Shown here: positions 2,211-55,085 of the stretch, piece after piece
Position numbering within the stretch: position 1 is the first letter of the stretch
Layout: each line of letters begins with the position of its first letter
DNA from: Medicago truncatula
Taxonomy: Eukaryota > Streptophyta > Magnoliopsida > Fabales > Fabaceae
DNA: 64,000 nt
NCBI RefSeq assembly: GCF_003473485.1
Contig: NC_053042.1
Span: forward strand, 43,425,762-43,489,761
Direction: 5' to 3'
Notes under the pieces: model-generated
Seen by the model: the letters and a program-made list of their open reading frames with translations, nothing else
The model's database searches: none
What the model was told of the DNA's origin: nothing
Translations under genes and position numbers: made by a program

Positions 2211-2798
2211 ATAACTTTTTTTTGAACAATCAAAAATGAATTATAATAACAATGCTAAATGATATCAAAAGCACAAGATGTGCCAAGATACCACCGCACA
2301 CACCAGTTTACAACAAAAGCAAAGGGTCTATCCAATGCCTAAACACGACATAGGACTAGACCACCACAAATGATCACCAAAAATAAAACAAGCCTTTTTG
2401 GCTTTCAACCACCACAAAGAATAAAACTTAACTTTATCTAATAACTGATCTAGAGATGATTCCTTTTGCTTAAACAGTCTAGCATTTCTTTCATTCCATA
2501 TAGTCCAAACGGTCAAAAGCCAAAGAAGCTGAAGAAAAGACCGTCTTGATCTCACACTACCTGTATAGTGGATAAATTGAACAAAATGATCAGAGATTTG
2601 TTGACTATCAACACCATCACAACCAATCCAAAACCGCACCAGAGACCACAACTCCCTAAAGCAAGGACACGAGAGAAACAAATGACGAGCATCCTCCACC
2701 TGGCCACACCCCAAAATACACAAAGAATCGGTATATCTATAATTATTCAATTGATACATATCTATCTGTATATCATATTTATCAAACATGATACACAA
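2211..2798 (-). mobile_element. 3' end of a LINE retrotransposon (reverse transcriptase zinc-binding tail)
   Basis: The minus-strand reading frame 2798-2328 (156 residues) has the C-terminal zinc-binding region of plant LINE reverse transcriptases: a Cys-rich 'CILGCGQVEDARHLFLSC' segment, then 'ELWSLV' and 'LLWLLTVWTIWNERNARLF'. Downstream of its stop lies an untranslated tail ending at an A-run (plus-strand T-run near 2211-2220). No reverse transcriptase core or endonuclease precedes it, so this is a 5'-truncated, dead insertion, as is usual for LINEs. The start codon of the frame has no meaning because the protein is truncated. Confidence 0.85.
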
Positions 2799-4002
2799 AT
2801 GTCATACTATCTACTTCATCAATATCTATTTACATCCTTATCCTTATTTTTAACATTTGAAAACGTGTATATATTTTTCTTTCCAAATCAAACCCCATGA
2901 GGCATGAAAGTGTTGGTATAAAGCACAGATATACTTATCACGCATACCGCGCGTCATATGCCTGAACCTGCTTGTCTCGCATACCCCGTGTCACAAATAC
3001 CTTTTTTTTTTAAATTTTTTTTTTTCCCAAAATAAACACCTTTTGTGAACAATAACTAGTTAAATGCACCAGTTTTTTTTTTTTCTTCTTTTGGATTTAA
3101 GGGTTGAAAAAAAAAAAAAAAAAGGTTGAACTATATTTAATTTAGTAATAAGAAAAATATCAATAATATATTGATTTTTCTTGGGATAGTGCATGGAAAA
3201 AGAAAAATCTCTATTAAGTCGTATATTTTTATCTTGGTCCCTTTATTTTAGAATCTCAGCTTCGCCTTTAGTCAGGCTAAATATTTTTTGTGGTTATTTC
3301 GGTTCAAACTTATGCCTACCTTTTGTTTATGAGTATTTAGGTGATGTTTGTCCATATGTAAATATAAAGATATTTAAGGAATAGACCCTTCCATTAATTG
3401 CATGGAGGAATATAAGAGGCTAACTCATGCCAAACTTATGCAAATTGTCAAAATCAATAAATGACTCCTACGGTCTCACTCTCATGTCAATGGTGTCATG
3501 TTCCTTGAATTATATATTTTTTTCTTCTCAATCAAACGGCAAAGGTGGAATTAATGTTTAACCATTTGCCCATAGTTAGAGTTCAGTTTCAAGAGCCAGG
3601 GACATGCATCTCCACACAAATTTTTTCCAGACATCTAAGAAAAGTTTAGCCGTGATGGTTGGAATCAACTATTAGGTCCAACAGAAGTTTGACTTCCACA
3701 AATTTAACTAAAGAAACAATTTAAGGTAGAGATTTTCAAAATTCCTCTTTAGTTATCTGTTGGAACATTGGTGTGAAGATGGAAGGAAATTGAAATGTTG
3801 AAAGATTAAAGATCAAGTTATTAAACTTTGATATAGTATTGTGTAATTGAAAAAATAGAGTGTGGAGGTCCCACATAAAATAGAACAAACATTAATATGT
3901 TTAAATAGTGATATTTAATTTTAAATACCTGATAATGATAAAAATAATAATAATTATTATTCTTTATTCATGAATATCACTTCCCACAATTTTAAGTTAT
4001 GT
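2799..4002. other. Intergenic, no gene seen
   Basis: A+T-rich DNA with poly-T and poly-A runs at about 3002-3025 and 3068-3125. A 63-codon ORF at 3193-3384 has no recognisable family and is not supported. Confidence 0.5.
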
Positions 4003-37075: not shown

Positions 37076-37161
37076 TGTATTTGTTATATTTTTCTCAAAA
37101 ATAATTGGCTCATAAAGTCCTCAGCTTGTATAAGACCAACAATACAGGTTTATTGATATAT

Positions 37162-37651
37162 GGGTTAAATATGTTTTTGGTCCCTATAAATATACCAACT
37201 TTTCGTTTTAGTCCCTCTAAAATTTACCTTCAACTTTTAGTCCTCCAAAATTTTCCATCTTCACTTTTGGTCCCTCTTTTAAAGTAAACTCATATGTAGA
37301 ATTCACATTTTTGAATAAAAGTTTGCAGAAAAATTCATAATATTATAAGAATCTCTCCTAAAAAATTTTAGAATTTTTCAACAAAACATGAATTTAATAT
37401 GAATTTTTATGGTTAAAAATTCATATTAAATTTATGTTTTGTTAAAAAATTCTAATTTTTTTTGGGAAATATTTTTACAATATTCTACACATTTATGCAC
37501 AATTTCATTAAAAAATATTAAAATTAACTTAAAAATAGGGACTATAAGTAGTGATTGAAAATTTTATAGGGACTAAAAGTTGAAGGAAAATTTTATAGGG
37601 ACTAAAACGAAAAGTTGATATATTTATAGGGACTAAAAACATATTTAACCC
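37162..37651. mobile_element. MULE-type MITE with 9-bp target duplication
   Basis: The ends GGGTTAAATATGTTTTTGGT and the inverted right end (same sequence) form a terminal inverted repeat of more than 60 bp with 'tttagtccct' words. Both flanks carry the identical 9-mer TTGATATAT (37153-37161 and 37652-37660). This 'ggttaaatatgtttttggtc' family is very common in legumes. It is non-coding, 490 bp. Confidence 0.9.
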
Positions 37652-37660
37652 TTGATATAT

Positions 37661-38089: not shown

Positions 38090-39324
38090 TGGTCTTGTGA
38101 ACAACCGTATTAGGATCACACCTCAAACAAATAAAGAAGAAGACATGGTAGCAGCTCACAGAGTCCGTGATTTTTTGGTTGGTTGGTAAGTAAGTGAGTG
38201 GCCCTAGCATTTGTTGTGTTGGTTTTACACTTCTTTTCCTTGTGTTTCTTTATTTGTTTTTTAACACGTGCATATAAAACTAATTCTAGATTTATGTTAA
38301 ATCTTTTTATGTCCTCACTTCGGTTTTCGACTTTCGTATAGGCCCGAAATTTTATTTCTTTAATTCCATTTTTAATACACTATCAAGTTTACTACAGCAA
38401 TCCATCAGAACAATGTTTCATTGGTGTCTAAGATGTGTAGTGTAATCTCTCAAAGATTAAGTTTAAGGAAGATGATTTAATTTTAATCAAAGATTTACAA
38501 TGATCGTATTATACTCTTATTGAACATTTTACAAAGTCCATCTTCGATACTCAGCTGACACCTCTTGAATAAATACTGTTGAATATGATTACATTTGAAC
38601 AATATTTTTGTCATTTTGTTTTTTGAAATTTCCAAATTCTAAGTACTCGAGGTCTTGCATCATTTAACATCTCATATCTAATATTCTTCATTAATGAGGA
38701 CAAACTATAATATTGCATGCATAGTTTTTTTTTTTTTTTGGGTAAAGAAAACTAAATAATGCAATGCATCACTATCATTTTCTGAATAATTAATGATCAT
38801 GTAATTTAATAACTCACTTGTTTTGGCAGATGAACAAGATCTGTTTTCAAATGATGAGGTAACAATAATATATATCATAATGAGTTAATAAAATAAGAAT
38901 ATTATTTCAACTTATAGAACTAAATAAGCTTTACTAATTGATTAAGTACTCTGTCACACCATGGGGTTTACAGTAGAGTTACTGCTATATAATTTCAGCT
39001 TCCAATGTGACAACAAACATCAAGTAATTCGTCATTGCAAGATGTGTCAAGGGTGAAATTCTTGCATGGATAATATTTGGTGCAGTGCTTCATGCCTCGA
39101 GGCATGCATTCATCTAGCTACTTACCAAGTTACTTATCACACACGTCACATTTTTTATTTACCAAGAATTAAGTCCATTAATTAATATAAACACTTCATG
39201 TTAATGTGTTTGTCTAATTTTCAATATGTTATGCTAATGGGGTCAAATGTAATAGGATATTTTGCGTGGTCCTTTATGGACGTGTTTGAGTTGTTGGATA
39301 TATATATCTATCTATCTATCTATC

Positions 39325-39382
<58 letters not shown>

Positions 39383-39490
39383 TCTAAACTACACTTTGCT
39401 TATGTGTCACCTCACCAATTCCCCCCTCTCTAACTAATTTTCTAAGCATTCTCCATGTGGCTCTCTTTTTCCTTCACTTTTGACTTCTTT

Positions 39491-39632
39491 ATTATGTAAC
39501 TTCCAATTAATTTGTGTGATTCCTTCCACTACCAATTTTTTTATTTATAACCTACAAATTATTATGTAACTTCCAATTAATTTGTTTAACTCTTTCCACT
39601 ACTCATTATTTTATATTGATAACCTACAAATT
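39491..39632. repeat. 70-bp tandem duplication in the Helitron
   Basis: 'attatgtaacttccaattaa' followed by 'tttgt', 'tttccactac' and 'taacctacaaatt' occurs twice, starting at 39491 and 39561, with scattered changes. Confidence 0.85.
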
Positions 39633-40734
39633 GAACAAATTTAGTGCATAATTTTATTTTCTATAAAAATCATTGCAAGAACATGCAAAAACTTGATTAC
39701 TCATTTTTTCAAAGGGTGAAGAATATTTGGAGGAGAATGAAGGATGTGGATTTTGTCTATCCCATGAAATAACCATGGGATAACCATAGTTCATTCACAA
39801 ACACATATGCATAAGCCATAAGGTATATCGTATTTATATTACCAATTTCATTTTTTTGGTAGTTTTTATTTTTCTTTTCCAACTTCATGTACATTTCTTT
39901 CTAATATTTTGTTATCTAATGGATATCCTTTCGTTTGTAGGGTTTTCGAAAAAGCAGAGTTTTTGAAAGGGTGTTTCTTATGTGAAAAGGTGGTTATCAT
40001 CATACATTAAAATAGAAGTCTTTTGACTTTTATGCTAACTATTTTTGCAATATGGTGGATGGTTATATTTATCAACTAATTTTTTGTAATATCTGAAATT
40101 ATTCCAATGAAATTATATCTACTTTTTTAGTCATTCTCTCATTCCTTTTATTTATTTCCCCAGTCTATGATATAGCTTTATATTTCACTCAATACATTGC
40201 GTGGTAAAATTTCTATTGTCTTTACGTTCTGTATTTCAATGTGTTTTTCGTTATTTTTGGAATTAGATATGAGAGGGTTCCTTTGCAACAAGGTTTGTAT
40301 TTTATCACCTATTTAATTACATGCATTTTAATGTATAAGCATATAAAATTGTTTGTTTTATTGTTTTTATTTGTCTACTAATATTTGTTACCTCACAAGA
40401 ATTGCTTTGGAATCCTCCATATCTTTCTATCTGTTTATTTATCTTTATGTTCATGTCTTCTTCTTCTATATTGTAAAGTAAACTTGAGTCATTATCATGT
40501 AAGCTTTGTGATGATTTTGCAACCCTAGAGAAACTTTCCACCCCTTAAAACCTTCCACTCTCTTGAAAACTTTTCATTCCACTAAAATTACTTAGTGGAA
40601 CATTGAATGTCAATATATTACATAACCTTTCTCTAATTTTTTTTTTCTTACATAACATTTAAGAAAAAAAAAAAAAAGGACTCAATCCCTCTCAAATTCT
40701 ATCTAATCTAATAATTAATAATGGAGAACTATCT

Positions 40735-40835
40735 CTATCTCTTCTCTATGTCTATCTATCTATCTATATATCTATCTCTATCTCTATCTCTATCTCTATA
40801 TACATGTATTTTAAGCTACACTTTGCTTAGGTGTT
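40735..40835. repeat. Second copy of the Helitron 5' end
   Basis: 'tctatctatctatctatata' and '(ctctat)n' followed by 'atacatgtattttaagctac' and 'actttgcttaggtg' matches the 5' end at 39307-39405 ('atacatgtattctaaactac', 'actttgcttatgtg'). A weaker third copy begins near 43308 ('tctatctatctatctatata' then 'cttcttctcttta'). This points to nested or multi-start Helitron structure. Confidence 0.7.
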
Positions 40836-41304
40836 TTTTTACAAAGCTCTCCAATAATTTTTGAACTTTTGATCTATGCTTAGCAATGACTTACGTGTCA
40901 TTCTATGTAAGCCTCTCCATTATTTTTCTTCTAATTCACATTTTGCATCCACTTTTCCTATTAAATGATCCCAACCTTCTGTATTTCTTTCTAATGTAAC
41001 TCCCTATTAAATACTCTTCCTACCCCTATATTTTTCCAAGGCTCCACATTTTGTATCCAATCTTTCAATTTCTCTCAATTAATTTGTAACAGCCATGGCT
41101 TGACCAAAAATATTCTTCCAACGTTTTATTTTTTACGACCCTTCAATATTTCTTCTTCCGTTTTTTTTAATATATATTTTACATTAGTTTCATTTTCGTC
41201 TATATATTTGTTCTAACGGGCTTTGGCTTTATAAAATGGGTATTGTTTATTAGGAATCGTGTTTGCAAGTTTTGGAAATAGAGCTCCTCATTTTTTTTCT
41301 AAGC

Positions 41305-41308
<4 letters not shown>

Positions 41309-41386
<78 letters not shown>
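41309..41386. repeat. (TA)n microsatellite
   Basis: About 38 uninterrupted TA repeats, giving a false ORF of alternating I and Y. A shorter (TA)n lies at 39328-39375 near the Helitron 5' end. Confidence 0.97.
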
Positions 41387-41387
<1 letters not shown>

Positions 41388-41767
41388 CTTATTTTATCCT
41401 TTTCATTTCTTCTTCCATTTCATTTTTTTGATAGTTTTGATTTTCTGTTCAAGCTTCGTGTGTGTGTTTCTATTTCTATAATTTTCCGTATTCTCGAATA
41501 GATATTTTTTTCTTTGATTTCAAATGCACGGGTTTGAGAAAAGAGAGAGTTTTGTTTAAAGGACATTTCATATATGAAATTGTGGTTGTATTTTTTCATT
41601 GAAATTAAAGTAATTTTTCATTATTATTATTTATTTAACATTGTTACGAGATCAAGAGTTCACTAAACATGTGGAAGGAAACATATAAAAAATGTATATT
41701 TTTTTATTCATTTTTATTCCAAGCCAACATGTGGTTGTTACTATAACTATTAGAGATTTTTCCTTCT

Positions 41768-41880
41768 CAACTAATTGCCATAAGATGGACGAGGATTTGG
41801 ATGGATCTTACAAGAAACTCAAAACTCTCAACACCAAAAATCCTAAAGGGTCGAACAAAAGAAAGTAAGAATCTTTATCC
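41768..41880 (+). other. Possible captured coding scrap in the Helitron
   Basis: The plus strand reads 'KMDEDLDGSYKKLKTLN' and 'TKNPKGSNKRK' then a stop. It has the Lys-rich look of the C-terminus of replication protein A-like proteins that Helitrons carry, but the similarity is weak and judged by eye only. Confidence 0.25.
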
Positions 41881-41991
41881 ATAGATGTTAGTTTAATTTG
41901 ATCAAGTATTTGTGTCTTTGTAATAAGAGAAAATACTCTTACTATGTTTTTAATAGAATAGTTTCTTATAAGAACAAGTATCCTAGGTAAC

Positions 41992-42060
41992 TAATTGTAG
42001 AAGCACACATATATTCAAGGCCTACATAACTAATTGTAGAAGCACACATCTATTCAAAAT
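41992..42060. repeat. Short tandem duplication (about 38 bp)
   Basis: 'taactaattgtagaagcaca' followed by 'catatattcaa' occurs twice in direct succession within the Helitron, as 'cctaggtaact...' and 'cctacataact...'. Confidence 0.85.
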
Positions 42061-43117
42061 TTTAATGGCATGTTCTTGATCTTCGTAAAATTGGAGAGAC
42101 AAAATCATGTTTTGATGATTTGAACGCACCAACATGGAAATTTAACCCTATACCTAGGAATTGGTTGACCTTCATACTTTCCATCAACTGAGTTTCCTAC
42201 AATTAAAAGTAAATTTGGGTGCAGCTTATGGAATTGTCTAACTATACCCACATTCTTTTGGGGAAGTTTTATGAATACTTTATTTTAAAGATAATTAAAT
42301 GACTTATTTCCATTTAGTTGCTTTCTTTTGATTAAGGTTTAATAAATTTATTAGCAATATTTTTAGATTTAATTTAATAAAGTTTATATGGATTTTATAT
42401 ATTTGAAAGTATGAGGTTAAGGTTGAATGTATAAGTGTTTCTATCAATTATATATTTGTCTTCTATATTATATTTTAAAGTAAGTTTGAGTTACTCTTGA
42501 TCTAGCATTTGTGATGACATGGTACCTTTAAGACCTTCCCATAAATTAAATTTGACTCATTATTCTTAAGCTTATGATTATGTATATGCATCTCACCTCT
42601 AAAAAAATATTCTCACATATAGTATAATTTCTCACCCTTTCTTATTCTATCTAATCTAACAATTATAATAATGCAAGTAGTTTTAAGTTACAAAACTTAT
42701 CATCCTTTCTTAATATATTTGTAGTTATTATTTTATACTCCATTAAAAAAGGCAAAGAGAGTAGAAAATGTGAGAAAGAGTTAGTAAAAAAAGAAGAAAA
42801 AAAGAATGAGAAATAAATTAAAAGAAGTGTTGGGAATGATTTTTTGGAGTGCCGTGTTGGATTAGAGGAGGATCTGTGAGGTAATTATGTAGCGTATAAT
42901 TGATGAGTTGTAAACAAATGATTTCGGGAAAAGAAGATAAGTTGTGGGAAAAGAATATACGAAGATTATGAACTATATTAAATAAACTATTGATTTTTAC
43001 TTGAATTATTTGAAATACAATGTAAATCAAGAAAAAAAATTATAAGTTGTCATATTTTTCTCCAATCTAATTGTTAAACTTAAATTATACACTATGAAAC
43101 TTTACCCATCTAAAAAA

Positions 43118-43305
43118 ATATTGTGACATTTTACCGTAAACACATTGAGACAAGGAATCAATGTATTAGAGATCAAGTAAAGAAAGGGTGGCTGGAACCG
43201 CTACATTGTCCTATTGCTATATACGAAGCAGACGTTCCTACAAAAATTGTGAAGCATGACAAGTTTGAGGAGTTGAGAAACAAGATGGGTGTCACATCTT
43301 TGGAG
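43118..43305 (+). pseudogene. Copia polyprotein C-terminal scrap carried by the Helitron
   Basis: The frame reads 'FYRKHIETRNQCIRDQVKKG', 'PLHCPIAIYEADVPTK' and 'KFEELRNKMGVTSLEHL'. This is the end of a Ty1/copia polyprotein, where the RNase H domain finishes with an H-I-E-x-R/D-x-H/C-x-I-R-D segment, then A-D-x-x-T-K and F-E-x-L-R-x-x-x-G-V. Nothing upstream of it is preserved and no LTR adjoins. Confidence 0.75.
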
Positions 43306-44370
43306 CATCTATCTATCTATCTATATATCTTCTTCTCTTTATAAACTAAACTTGACTCACTCCGATGCTAGGATTGTGCCTCTGTGGCACCTATAAAAAA
43401 GACTTAACTTTTACTCTTTAATTATTCTATCTAATAAACTAATCTAATACGTAACTTCTCACTTTTTTTTCTCATAATAACGCTAACTCAATCATACAAT
43501 CCATTAGAATACAACGAGTTATGAACTCACTCTAGACAAAAAATAACAAAGATGTTCGTTAATGAACAGAAACATCATTGTTTTTCTATAGCCATGTTTT
43601 AAGAATCTAATAGTAACGGTTTATGGATCTAACAAACTATTTAAACATTCCATAATTTCATACACCGTCATCATTGGATGTATCTCTTAACATTCCTTCA
43701 ATTATAACCTATAAAATGGAATCAATTTTACAACAGATACTTTTCTACACTTTTTGTTGAAAATTGGTTGGTTATAATTTTAATTAAGGGTCATTGTCCC
43801 ATCCTTCTGTATATAAATTTCTGCGGTATTATTTTGATTTTGGATCATCATTATCACTTTCTTCAATCAACTCTTGGATAATACTCTTCAATTTTGTATC
43901 CTTATATATTGAAAGAGCACATTATTTTCTTAACAAGATTGATGCTGTTTTTTATTTTTAGTGAGAGCACATTATTTTTTTAACAAGATTGATGTTGTTT
44001 TTCTTTTAATTTTGTTTTCAGGTTGTATGGATAACAATTAGAGATAACATTTTAGAGCTTTGTTATAGCAAAGTCGCATAAAGAAATTTAGGCAATTGAT
44101 TTGATTGGCAACAATATGGGACATTTAAAATATTAGAAACAATATTATATTTCAATGTGGGGTGGATAATGTGGGAAAATTGGTATATCTAATTAAAAAT
44201 ATTGATTGAATATGGTTCTTGGGTAAATTGCAAGCAATATTTTGATCAATCCCGTGCAACGCACGGGTTATATACCTAGTATATATATATTAATCGCAAT
44301 GATCCAGAGTTAAAGAGGTATTCAAAGCTCTATGCAAAGTGGTACAGGCAGTTTTTGATGGGTAGAAGAA

Positions 44371-46480
44371 GTTATTTAATTTTCTCTTGTTTCTCTTGGA
44401 CCTTTGTTTGTGTAGTAATAAGTTATTTAATTTTGTTTAAGATCTGAGCCAACATTAATTAGTGATGTTTCCTTGCTATGCTCAATTACTATCCATTCTT
44501 TGTACATTCCACGTATACGTGTAAAAATTTGTTATCCAGATAATGTTACATGCATAAGTGGTAGATATTTGTATATCACTTAATTGTTTGATTCGAGGTT
44601 TGATCCTTATGAAAAAACAAATTCAAATTGTTAAGGGATGCAATTATGGATACCACGTGTAAATATACTTGTACATGTCCAAATATTGTGCTTAAATAAT
44701 TATAACCATATCGTCCCTAAATATAGGAACCTTTTGCAAAAATTACGGAGATTAAGAAAGTAGGTTGTAGTATTAAATTTATATATAATTACTATTGTTT
44801 TTACAATTTTATCCTTAAGAGAAATAGTTAATTTATGTTTTCAACATAATACTTATTGTTGATTGAGGAAAAAGATGCAAAATAAATAAGGGTAGATTTG
44901 TAAAGAAATAATTAGCGTACTTGAAAATATCAAAGAGGTCTTATAAAAAGGGACAAATTTTTTTTTCTCAAAAGGGACGGAGATACTAAATTATTTACAT
45001 GAATACTCTTAGAAAAGTACAAAGCCTGATTATCATTTGAAAAGTAATACCCTACAACACACTGAAAGAAAGTAAAAGCCTAATTATCCCAAGAGTACAA
45101 ATTAATATAAGAGAAGTGCTGGCAACACTCTCTTTTTTATCATTCTCTTTAATACTCACTTTTTTATTGGATAAAATCAATATGAATCTCATATTTTGGA
45201 AATAGATCCCACATAAAGTGGTAGAATCCACATTGATTTCATCCAATGATAGAGTTAATATTAGAGAGTGATCAAAATAGAGTGTTGCTAATATTTTTCA
45301 TTAATATAAACTAGGGTTTTTCTATCATGAAGAAGTTCAAAATAGTAAATTTGTATTGTAACTTGTGCATTTTATATTAAATATGTAACTTTTCAATAAG
45401 TGATTGTTGTTTTTCAATTAAAAGTTGCTATTTTTAGTTTCCTTAACATGTGTAATATTGCACATGTTAGACAAACCCATATAATTATGAAAATGTACAC
45501 ACCAAGAATGTTGGTGTTTTCTTTCATTAAAATATATTTTAAGCGTAAATTTATGGAAGTTTCTACTGTACACCCTTCAATTAAGGTGTACCAATACACC
45601 TATTTCATAAATCTATAAGTTAACGATAATTTTTATGTGATAAAGAGATATTTATCGACTTTTATATTTTAGAAAATATCATTCCACAAGAAAAAACATC
45701 ATTTCATTTTTTATAAGAATTATACTAAATTTTTTAATATTTTATTGAAAAAAATAATCAATATTCACTATTATGAGTAATAAAAATTAACAAAATTTGA
45801 ATTTTACTTTGCCGACACTTTTGAAAAATAAAATAAAATAATTATAATTATAAATGATAGAAAATATTTTTTTTTAAAGAAAATAAATCATTAAACTATT
45901 CATTTAAATACACGGGTGTACCGATACACTTAAAATTATCGAGTGTACCATAGAAATTGCCTAAATTTATAATAATTACATAATTAGTTTTAAAGAACTT
46001 GCTAATTTTCACCCATTCATCTTTTGTGGAAGTAACCTTTCAAAAAAAAAAAAAAAAAACTTTTGCGGAAGTAAATTAACAAGTTATAACGACAAATTTA
46101 TTACATACATTTAAGGTATAGTTTGCTAATTTAGACTAACTATAAAAGTAGTAAGTACCTAGTTAGCAAATCCTACTTGCTAACTTATATTGATCACTCA
46201 TTTTTTTGTGGTTAAATTAGCAAGTTAAAACTATTTTTTTTGACAAATTATTTTGTCAAACTTTAACACGTAACTTGCTAATTTGTACCCACTAAAAATA
46301 AAGTGAATTTAAATTAGCAAATCCATTCTTTTTTGAACAAGGAAACAGGTATATTTTATTTAAGATTAATCTTTTTCTTCATGAACATCAACTGCCATCC
46401 TTATTTCTAAAAAAAATTCTTTCCAATTAAGGAATAGTTAAATGGATACGAGATTTTGGATATAAGATTTAGACACATGG
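44371..46480. other. Intergenic, no gene, one Stowaway-like MITE
   Basis: About 44710-44985 has ends 'cgtccctaaatatagg' and 'aaaagggacggagata' and shares 'gtaaagaaat.' and 'tcttataaaaag.gacaa' with 63205-63370, so it is a degraded MITE of the ctccctcc group. About 45100-45290 holds 'agtgctggcaacactctctt' and its rough inverse 'agagtgttgctaatatttt', another small inverted-repeat element. The rest is A+T-rich. Confidence 0.5.
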
Positions 46481-47730
46481 ATATAAAAATACATATTATT
46501 TAATTATTTTCTTTTTTAACTTTTTTCCATTTTTGTGAGTGTCGAAATTTTATGTCTAAAGTATCTTGACTACACAAAAATTTCTCCACATTTAGACACT
46601 AGACAAAAATCACACTAAAGACGGACTTAAATTAATCAAAATTTTATTTTTGTTGAGAAATTACATTAATCACATTGAATATGGCAAAACAATAATACGA
46701 ATACCGTGATTAACTGAAAAGAAAATAAAAGCCTAAAATGCATTTATTTTTCCTTTGCAAAATTACAATGCTTTATCATGATTTTGTTAAACTTATCACC
46801 AACCTAACATGCATGTTTAAAAAAGGTTTTGTTAACAAGCACCCTAACAATGTTTACGGAAACCATAAAAAAAATGAATGTCTTTGAAAATTTAAGTTTT
46901 TATTGTTTGAAGAAGCTAAAATGGAATTTATTAAAATCACAATGATTCCTAACCAGCACAAGGAATGCTAGATCAGAAGTCGTAAAGTAGCAACATACAA
47001 AAGAAAATAAAAGTTGTACCAAAACCCTCACCCAACATACATAAAAAAACTCTCAAACATCACAAGTTGCCACAAAAACAACTTCCACTACCAACATTAT
47101 GTTGCCCGCACACAATCTCCAAACAACAACGTCAAGAACCAACACAATAACCAACAACCTTTAAAAAGCTACACAATTGAAACAACAACAACAACGATTG
47201 AAACAACAACAACAACAACCACCTTCGCCACAACAACAATCGATATCACGTTAACGAATCCATCTTTGCAACAACAACAACCAACACAACAACAATCATA
47301 ACTACACAATTTTCAATACAAAAGTTTATGTTTCAAATGCTTAAACAATGCCCTAAAGGCATTTGTTAGCATTTTTCTTAAAATAATTAAAAGTAAAAAG
47401 CTATTTTAATCTTCTTCGAAATCATAAAATCAAATATTAAGTTTTTTTCTTTGCTTACAAATAATTAAGTTATTCGAAATACTAACAAATTACTCCTTTT
47501 TTTACTAAGTATTACAATTAATCCGTAAGTGAAAAAAATTAATCCGTAAAGTTTAATTTACTTGTTTATCTAGTAAATGCCGAGTAAACTTTGTCCAAAA
47601 CATGGATGATTAGAAAATAAGTCAGAACCACCAATTTGGTGTTGTCCTTTACTCACCCACACTTCTTAAAAATGGAATACAAAAATGTTTGAGGGAATAT
47701 ACAGAAAGAAAAAAAACATAAACATAGAAG
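46481..47730. other. Upstream region of beta-glucosidase copy 1
   Basis: The parts 46510-46700 and about 47605-47730 match the upstream region of copy 2 (53703-53814 plus 55523-55620, and 56068-56193). The middle differs between the copies. 47000-47300 includes a (CAA)n tract (47178-47295) that yields a false Thr/Gln-rich ORF. Confidence 0.7.
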
Positions 47731-54236: not shown

Positions 54237-54713
54237 CTACTGATGTCTAATATTAATGCAATCTTTGCGGGAATGACCAGGCATCCTACAAACACCGCAT
54301 CTTCTCTCAGTTTCCACATCGTCCATCTCGGTCCTAATGCGAGTAATTGGTGGACGACCTTTCTTTGCCCTACGCATTGACTTGTTGGGAACCACCTTCG
54401 GTCCTTCATAATTAGGCCAATATGTCTGGTGGTGAACCACGTCGAAGTGGATGTTGTATACGGCGTATACACACTCATTTGTGAATTTGTTATCGACAAA
54501 AGTCTTGTAGTCGTGACAAAAGCTAGAACATGCGGCAATGACATGTGAGCATGGTAGGTGTAACGCTCTAAACCGTCCACAGTCACACCATTTATTTTGC
54601 AGGTCCACTTTGTATTCTCCCTTTGGCAATCCTTCTTTATGATCGATGGTTTCACGGACGGAAAAGGTATATCGATCCCGGTCAAACTGAGTGACATGAT
54701 GACTGTTGGATTT
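54237..54713 (-). pseudogene. MULE transposase C-terminus (SWIM finger and zinc knuckle)
   Basis: The minus frame reads 'SNSHHVTQFDRDRYTFSV', then a SWIM zinc finger 'CDCGRFRALHLPCSH' (CxCx9CxH), and a CCHC knuckle 'CGVCRMPGHSRKDC' before the stop. This is the normal end of plant MuDR-type transposases. The DDE domain that should precede it is gone, cut off near 54713. Confidence 0.88.
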
Positions 54714-54725
54714 AATCACCTCATT

Positions 54726-55085
54726 CCTGGCGCATCCAACAACAACTACTTCTCCTATAATGACCCAAACCAAGCTGGACCGTCCAACACCAATTACCCC
54801 CCCTACAGCAACCCACAATACCCAATGTACACCAACCAAAACTACAACCACCCACCAACACCAACAAACCTATTATCTCACTTTTCTCCGGCTTCGTTGA
54901 ACTCTAGTGATCAATTTCTGGATATGGGATGGCCAACAAGGGAACACGATGTGTCATTGTCATTGGGTTATGGTAGTCAAATACAATCAGCTGCAGATAA
55001 CAACGACGAAGACCAACATGACCCTCAAGTAAATCGCGGAAGAAATCGTCGAAGACGAGGGTGTGGGACAGCCGGGCATTTATAA
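54726..55085 (+). pseudogene. C-terminal tail of a second transposon-linked protein (possibly plant mobile domain type)
   Basis: The plus frame from about 54726 reads an Asn-, Pro- and Tyr-rich stretch ('NNNYFSYNDPNQAGPSN'), then 'DMGWPTREHDVSLSLGYG', a basic 'GRNRRRRGCGTAGHL' and a stop. The basic end with 'CGT.GH' is reminiscent of PMD-type proteins often carried by Mutator-like elements. The low-complexity composition makes this uncertain. The 5' part is missing at the same joint as the transposase fragment. Confidence 0.5.

Follow-up and report, generated by a model that had tools for sequence, protein, structure and literature searches.

Positions 39307 to 44279 (+ strand) of a 64,000-nucleotide (nt) stretch of Medicago truncatula DNA (contig NC_053042.1; the whole stretch is called the window below) are very probably a non-autonomous, non-coding Helitron of 4,973 nt that inserted into a decaying copy of a GH1 beta-glucosidase gene. 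This assignment comes from the sequence of the insert and its surroundings: both ends have the form expected of a Helitron, the target is A|T, and two nearby paralogues show the interrupted exon in one piece. An earlier note had described a Helitron inside the last exon of a beta-glucosidase pseudogene. The ends, the target, and the paralogues agree with that description, but the element is not a simple Helitron, as further 5'-end sequences lie within it.

A beta-glucosidase exon in two pieces

Two genes for GH1 beta-glucosidases are present in the window, at about 47.7-51.3 kb and 56-60.1 kb; their three main matching blocks are 89-91% alike. Upstream of both lies a third copy, which has decayed. 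The last exon of this third copy is split. Its left piece (39240..39299, +), also found by tblastn, matches the two paralogues at 47/60 and 46/60 nt, and its right piece (44298..44369, +) matches them at 57/72 and 58/72 nt, with clear homology starting at 44298 or possibly 44292. The last exon is uninterrupted in both paralogues, and these identities confirm the earlier proposal that one exon lies in two pieces 5 kb apart. At the protein level the pieces read GSNVIGYFAWSFMDVFELLD and INRNDPELKRYSKLYAKWYRQF.

By family search alone both pieces are weak. The left piece was below the Pfam cut-off for GH1 (E 0.0022; 17 bits against 22.6) and its PDB matches had E values of 0.011 or worse, Klotho first and then beta-glucosidases, and for the right piece neither Pfam (E up to 1) nor PDB (E up to 10) gave a match. 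Other remnants of the pseudogene are on the same strand: a penultimate exon (39011..39107), aligned to the paralogues at 75% and 74% over 96 nt, and an earlier exon (38121..38186), found by tblastn with 13/22 residues (59%; E 5e-7). A short exon near 38830-38858 looks by eye like one in a paralogue. Searches of 25000-47500 with the open reading frames of paralogue 1 of at least 25 amino acids (aa), at a 24-bit limit, revealed no further pseudogene exons. One extra G is present near the start of the pseudogene last exon, and we infer that the damage to this gene is more than the insertion alone.

The host gene also limits where the borders can be. From TTGGAT to AATGATCC there are 39 nt in the paralogues and 25 nt, mostly (AT)n, in the joined pseudogene flanks, so that the exon is shorter at the junction by 14 nt than in the paralogues. 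The 25 nt comprise 39300-39306 and 44280-44297, and the difference from the 39 exon nt is not explained by a plain Helitron insertion. The host gene thus confines the left border to about 7 nt, and for the right border the range is 12-18 nt. This bracketing is only approximate because (AT)n lies on both sides, and for the same reason any short target duplication would be hidden. The host gene had previously been regarded as independent proof of the borders; it does bracket them, but with 25 nt against 39 and AT-rich flanks it does not fix the exact base.

Ends and interior of the insert

The insert reads from A|TCTATCTATC... to ...CCCGTGCAACGCACGGG TTATATAC CTAG|T. The termini are those originally claimed, with ATC at 39306-39308 and CTAGT at 44276-44280. 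On the + strand, the outer 5' start TCTATCTATCTATCTAT (39307..39323) is preceded by A, and the 3' terminus CTAG (44276..44279) is followed by T and preceded, at a spacing of 8 nt, by the hairpin CCCGTGC-AAC-GCACGGG (44251..44267), which has a 7-bp stem and a 3-nt loop. Folded as DNA, this hairpin has an energy of -8.4 kcal/mol (z -4.62), and none of 200 shuffles folded as well. The exact hairpin 17-mer occurs once in the window (0.01 expected), and when 3 mismatches are allowed the second match is its own reverse strand. A generic search for a 7-bp stem with CTRR-T yielded 4 distinct 3' ends on both strands of the window, compared with a mean of 4.85 in 40 shuffles. A generic match of this kind is worth nothing by itself because its count is no higher than in shuffled sequence. 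When at least 5/7 of the stem was required to be G/C, only the end at 44279 was left in the window (shuffles: mean 0.025, largest 1). Other candidate ends were rejected: a scan for stems of at least 6, half of them G/C, gave those at 47610, 30209, and 6996 (all minus), and the stem-7 scan gave those at 3932, 36980, and 6996 (minus); the stems of these ends contain only 0 to 4 G/C in 6-7.

The longest inverted word common to the 60-nt ends is TATATA, which provides no terminal inverted repeat. No Pfam match to Rep, helicase, or RPA families was found among the wholly internal open reading frames of at least 60 aa (9/9 scanned; shorter pieces were unscanned), and weak matches below the cut-off (zf-FLZ 0.1, DUF5334 0.17, DUF7540 0.2) were taken as chance. 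Non-autonomous Helitrons lack Rep/Hel, so its absence leaves membership possible, and the lack of both a terminal inverted repeat and a Rep/Hel match is therefore best read as indicating a non-autonomous Helitron. Rfam families had no match within the insert. Neither the hairpin with CTAGT nor the 5' start sequence had any match in viral_contigs (0 each), and 10 bacterial loci in genome_contigs with the hairpin and CTAGT were taken for chance or terminators, the loci themselves being unread. A literature string search matched no hairpin string together with Helitron, from which absence from print is not claimed.

The start sequence TCTATCTATCTATCTAT is found at 39307, 40751, and 43308 and nowhere else on either strand of the window; all three sites are in the insert and on one strand. 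Judged by these repeats, the insert is a composite with three starts upstream of the single 3' end found. The copy at 40751..40773 (+) is identical over 23 nt to 43308-43330 and is the one we are less sure of as a 5' end; the TC at 40755 has A before it. The start at 43308..43330 (+) is preceded by A and would begin a core element of 972 nt. It directly follows an open frame (43141..43307, +) reading HIETRNQCIRDQVKKGWLEPLHCPIAIYEADVPTKIVKHDKFEELRNKMGVTSLEH, which we read tentatively as the RNase H region at the C-terminus of copia pol. This identity was confirmed by no search: the peptide had no relatives in Pfam, only 3 weak unrelated matches in PDB up to E 10 (best 0.022), 12 pattern matches in viral_contigs of which 0 were confirmed, and no match in the literature string search. 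To the right of the sole 3' end is glucosidase exon, with no continuation of the copia-like frame.

The sequences downstream of the starts are also repeated. Sequence following 39307 is found again following 40751 (79% over 102 nt, microsatellite included), and with microsatellites masked 39845-40044 matches 41417-41636 at 151/195 aligned nt, with 0/100 shuffles as good. A second module repeats at 40424-40514, 42438-42517, and 43328-43359. For the masked repeats after the starts, the comparisons alpha1/alpha2, beta1/beta2, and beta1/beta3 each had 0/100 shuffles as good, and perhaps two decayed starts lie near 40420 and 42440. No decayed hairpin-CTRR end was found on the + strand inside the insert in scans that needed perfect stems and would therefore miss decayed 3' ends. 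Tandem duplications internal to the insert are present at 39489-39632 (about 70 nt) and 43902-44001 (about 50 nt).

According to the model developed for Helraiser, RepHel requires the left end and cleaves at the 5' TC; it pauses on reaching the 3' hairpin and cuts at CTAG, with insertion between A and T (PMC4778049). By analogy, RepHel made elsewhere would have nicked the donor copy at the 5' TC, displaced a strand, and stopped at the hairpin before CTAG, and the strand or a circle would have been joined between A and T where the last exon is rich in AT, presumably of a gene that was already broken. In the Helraiser model several starts could each launch transfer to the same stop, and an element could therefore grow in the 5' direction. 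The history that we tentatively prefer, while judging it somewhat short of probable, is that the oldest part is the 972-nt core (43308-44279), sitting in a copia element; that transfers launched at starts upstream of it later mobilised this core, step by step, with the DNA between carried along; and that the composite then moved as a unit into the pseudogene. As an account of the interior, 5'-ward growth is plausible at about that same tentative level.

A different history for the interior is only slightly less likely. The outer Helitron may have entered the exon first, with copia and then one or more further Helitrons nested in it and a later deletion removing what remained of copia together with the extra 3' ends. 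Such a sequence of events concerns how the interior arose and not whether the insert is a Helitron. At 43308 the start and the copia-like frame join at A|TC, which is what a fresh insertion would give; the loss of 14 nt from the exon shows that deletions do occur at the locus; and maize helAs tend to land near or within other Helitrons (PMC3288121). Against nesting, every extra 3' end must have been lost, and the perfect-stem scans found no decayed + strand end.

Weighing the Helitron assignment

Several observations weigh against a Helitron with the ends and starts proposed here. The assignment rests on one copy, whereas most Helitron claims rest on dispersed copies. Joining the two pieces does not restore the exon exactly: the junction has 25 nt where the paralogues have 39, with a frame shift and no frame spanning both pieces, and the (AT)n flanks yield direct repeats of 7-10 nt by composition. 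Inside the insert, the start at 40751 is preceded by G rather than A; the beta2/beta3 comparison is weak, with 2/100 shuffles as good and the alignment falling elsewhere in the module; and 43450-44240 fits neither internal unit (86/100 and 90/100 shuffles as good). As (TCTA)n sequences, the starts could simply be microsatellite. No site in the window matches the 5' criterion that HelitronFinder uses for maize (PMC2267711), and the insert end misses the high-quality 3' criterion by one spacer base; the medium 3' criterion recovers the insert end together with 8 other window sites. The pseudo-3'-terminus model for maize helA, CCGT[N]GCA[AT]CGCACG[AG]2 N6-8 CTAT (PMC3288121), had 0 matches as printed, and with N optional and CTAG allowed its one match is at 44252. 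Finally, a hairpin is an imperfect mark of a Helitron because an obviously strong one is missing from the 3' end of 16/35 maize Helitrons (PMC2575219).

The microsatellite explanation of the starts was set aside because the downstream matches persist when microsatellites are masked and because the starts are confined to the insert and to one of its strands. The starts are kept as 5' ends also because those at 39307 and 43308 fall at A|TC and at breaks in the sequence.

The (AT)n that flanks the insert left and right, together with its 7-10 nt direct repeats, would also be consistent with some other transposon, for example a Mutator-like element of the MuTAnT type, that entered a TA microsatellite and has Helitron-like ends by chance. 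MuTAnTs of Medicago truncatula do target TA microsatellites (PMC4486113), and their target duplication is 9 nt, a length to be read here against flanks that are (AT)n and repetitive by composition. But the insert has no terminal inverted repeats, and TC, hairpin, and CTAG occur together at the break, which makes such an element very unlikely. Equally improbable is an intron gain or rearrangement that split the exon, with the 5 kb not being one insertion: 14 exon nt are gone at the junction and the insert contains several unrelated blocks, but the two pieces hold neighbouring codons of a single exon, their order and strand are correct, and a Helitron terminus lies at each break.

Neighbouring elements and known Helitrons

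Other mobile-element traces are present in the window. Just upstream of the pseudogene, a 490-nt element (37162-37651) has 96-nt terminal inverted repeats (86/96 match, GGGTTAAATATG...), a perfect 9-nt target duplication TTGATATAT at 37153-37161 and 37652-37660, and an inner palindrome (37302-37521), and it looks like a Mutator-type miniature inverted-repeat transposable element (MITE). Between the glucosidase paralogues, a SWIM zinc-finger piece (54240-54869, minus; Pfam PF04434, E 1.9e-6) probably belongs to a Mutator-like transposase. A weak reverse-transcriptase zinc-binding match (zf-RVT, E 0.0022, below the cut-off) at 2331-2801 (minus) is perhaps the remnant of a long interspersed nuclear element. 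Rfam matches in the window were to precursors of MIR2619, MIR2587, and MIR5269, which we presume to be Medicago families. The MIR5269 match (45167-45246, +) scored 61.3 bits against a cut-off of 60, and weaker sub-threshold MIR5269 matches are on the opposite strand, as expected from a MITE-like palindrome.

Among described plant Helitrons, the maize helAs resemble the Medicago insert in having a hairpin of the type CCGT(N)GCAWCGCACGRR, followed by 6-8 nt and CTA-, and in having more than one 5' terminus per element (PMC3288121). The CTAG of the insert is as in real ends, unlike the CTAT of the pseudo-3' model. The insert differs from helA in that the N of the model is missing, the (TCTA)n 5' end fails the maize 5' criterion, several starts accompany the one 3' end found, and the host belongs to a different plant family. 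The 3' end also fits the search form used in Lolium perenne (PMC2702305). The Lolium GIGANTEA Helitron is alike in its TC and CTAG ends, A|T target, and GC-rich hairpin 7-9 nt before CTAG|T, and also in signs that a smaller element expanded: the smaller Lolium Helitron may have grown 5'-ward (PMC2702305). Its hairpin sequence is different, and it carries host gene fragments, in contrast to the insert, in which only a piece tentatively read as copia-like was seen. Mothra Helitrons of rice share non-autonomy, TC and CTAG ends, a hairpin (16 nt in Mothra), and two internal repeat blocks, one of them very AT-rich; a point of difference is that Mothra is a family of high copy number for which a mother element has been proposed (PMC4683698).

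Short motifs are the usual basis for placing Helitron borders. At this locus the host exon and two uninterrupted nearby paralogues supply evidence from outside the element. With its several internal 5' starts and single 3' end, the insert could also serve as a test case for how composite Helitrons originate. Neither feature is greatly surprising, as multiple termini are reported for 28.7% of maize helAs, and multiple 5' termini for 17.6%, in a study that explains multi-terminus elements by nesting and later transfer (PMC3288121). If the 5'-ward history that we favor is true, the insert would be a growth record of one Helitron, in which growth by choice of start stands beside the known reading past of the 3' end.

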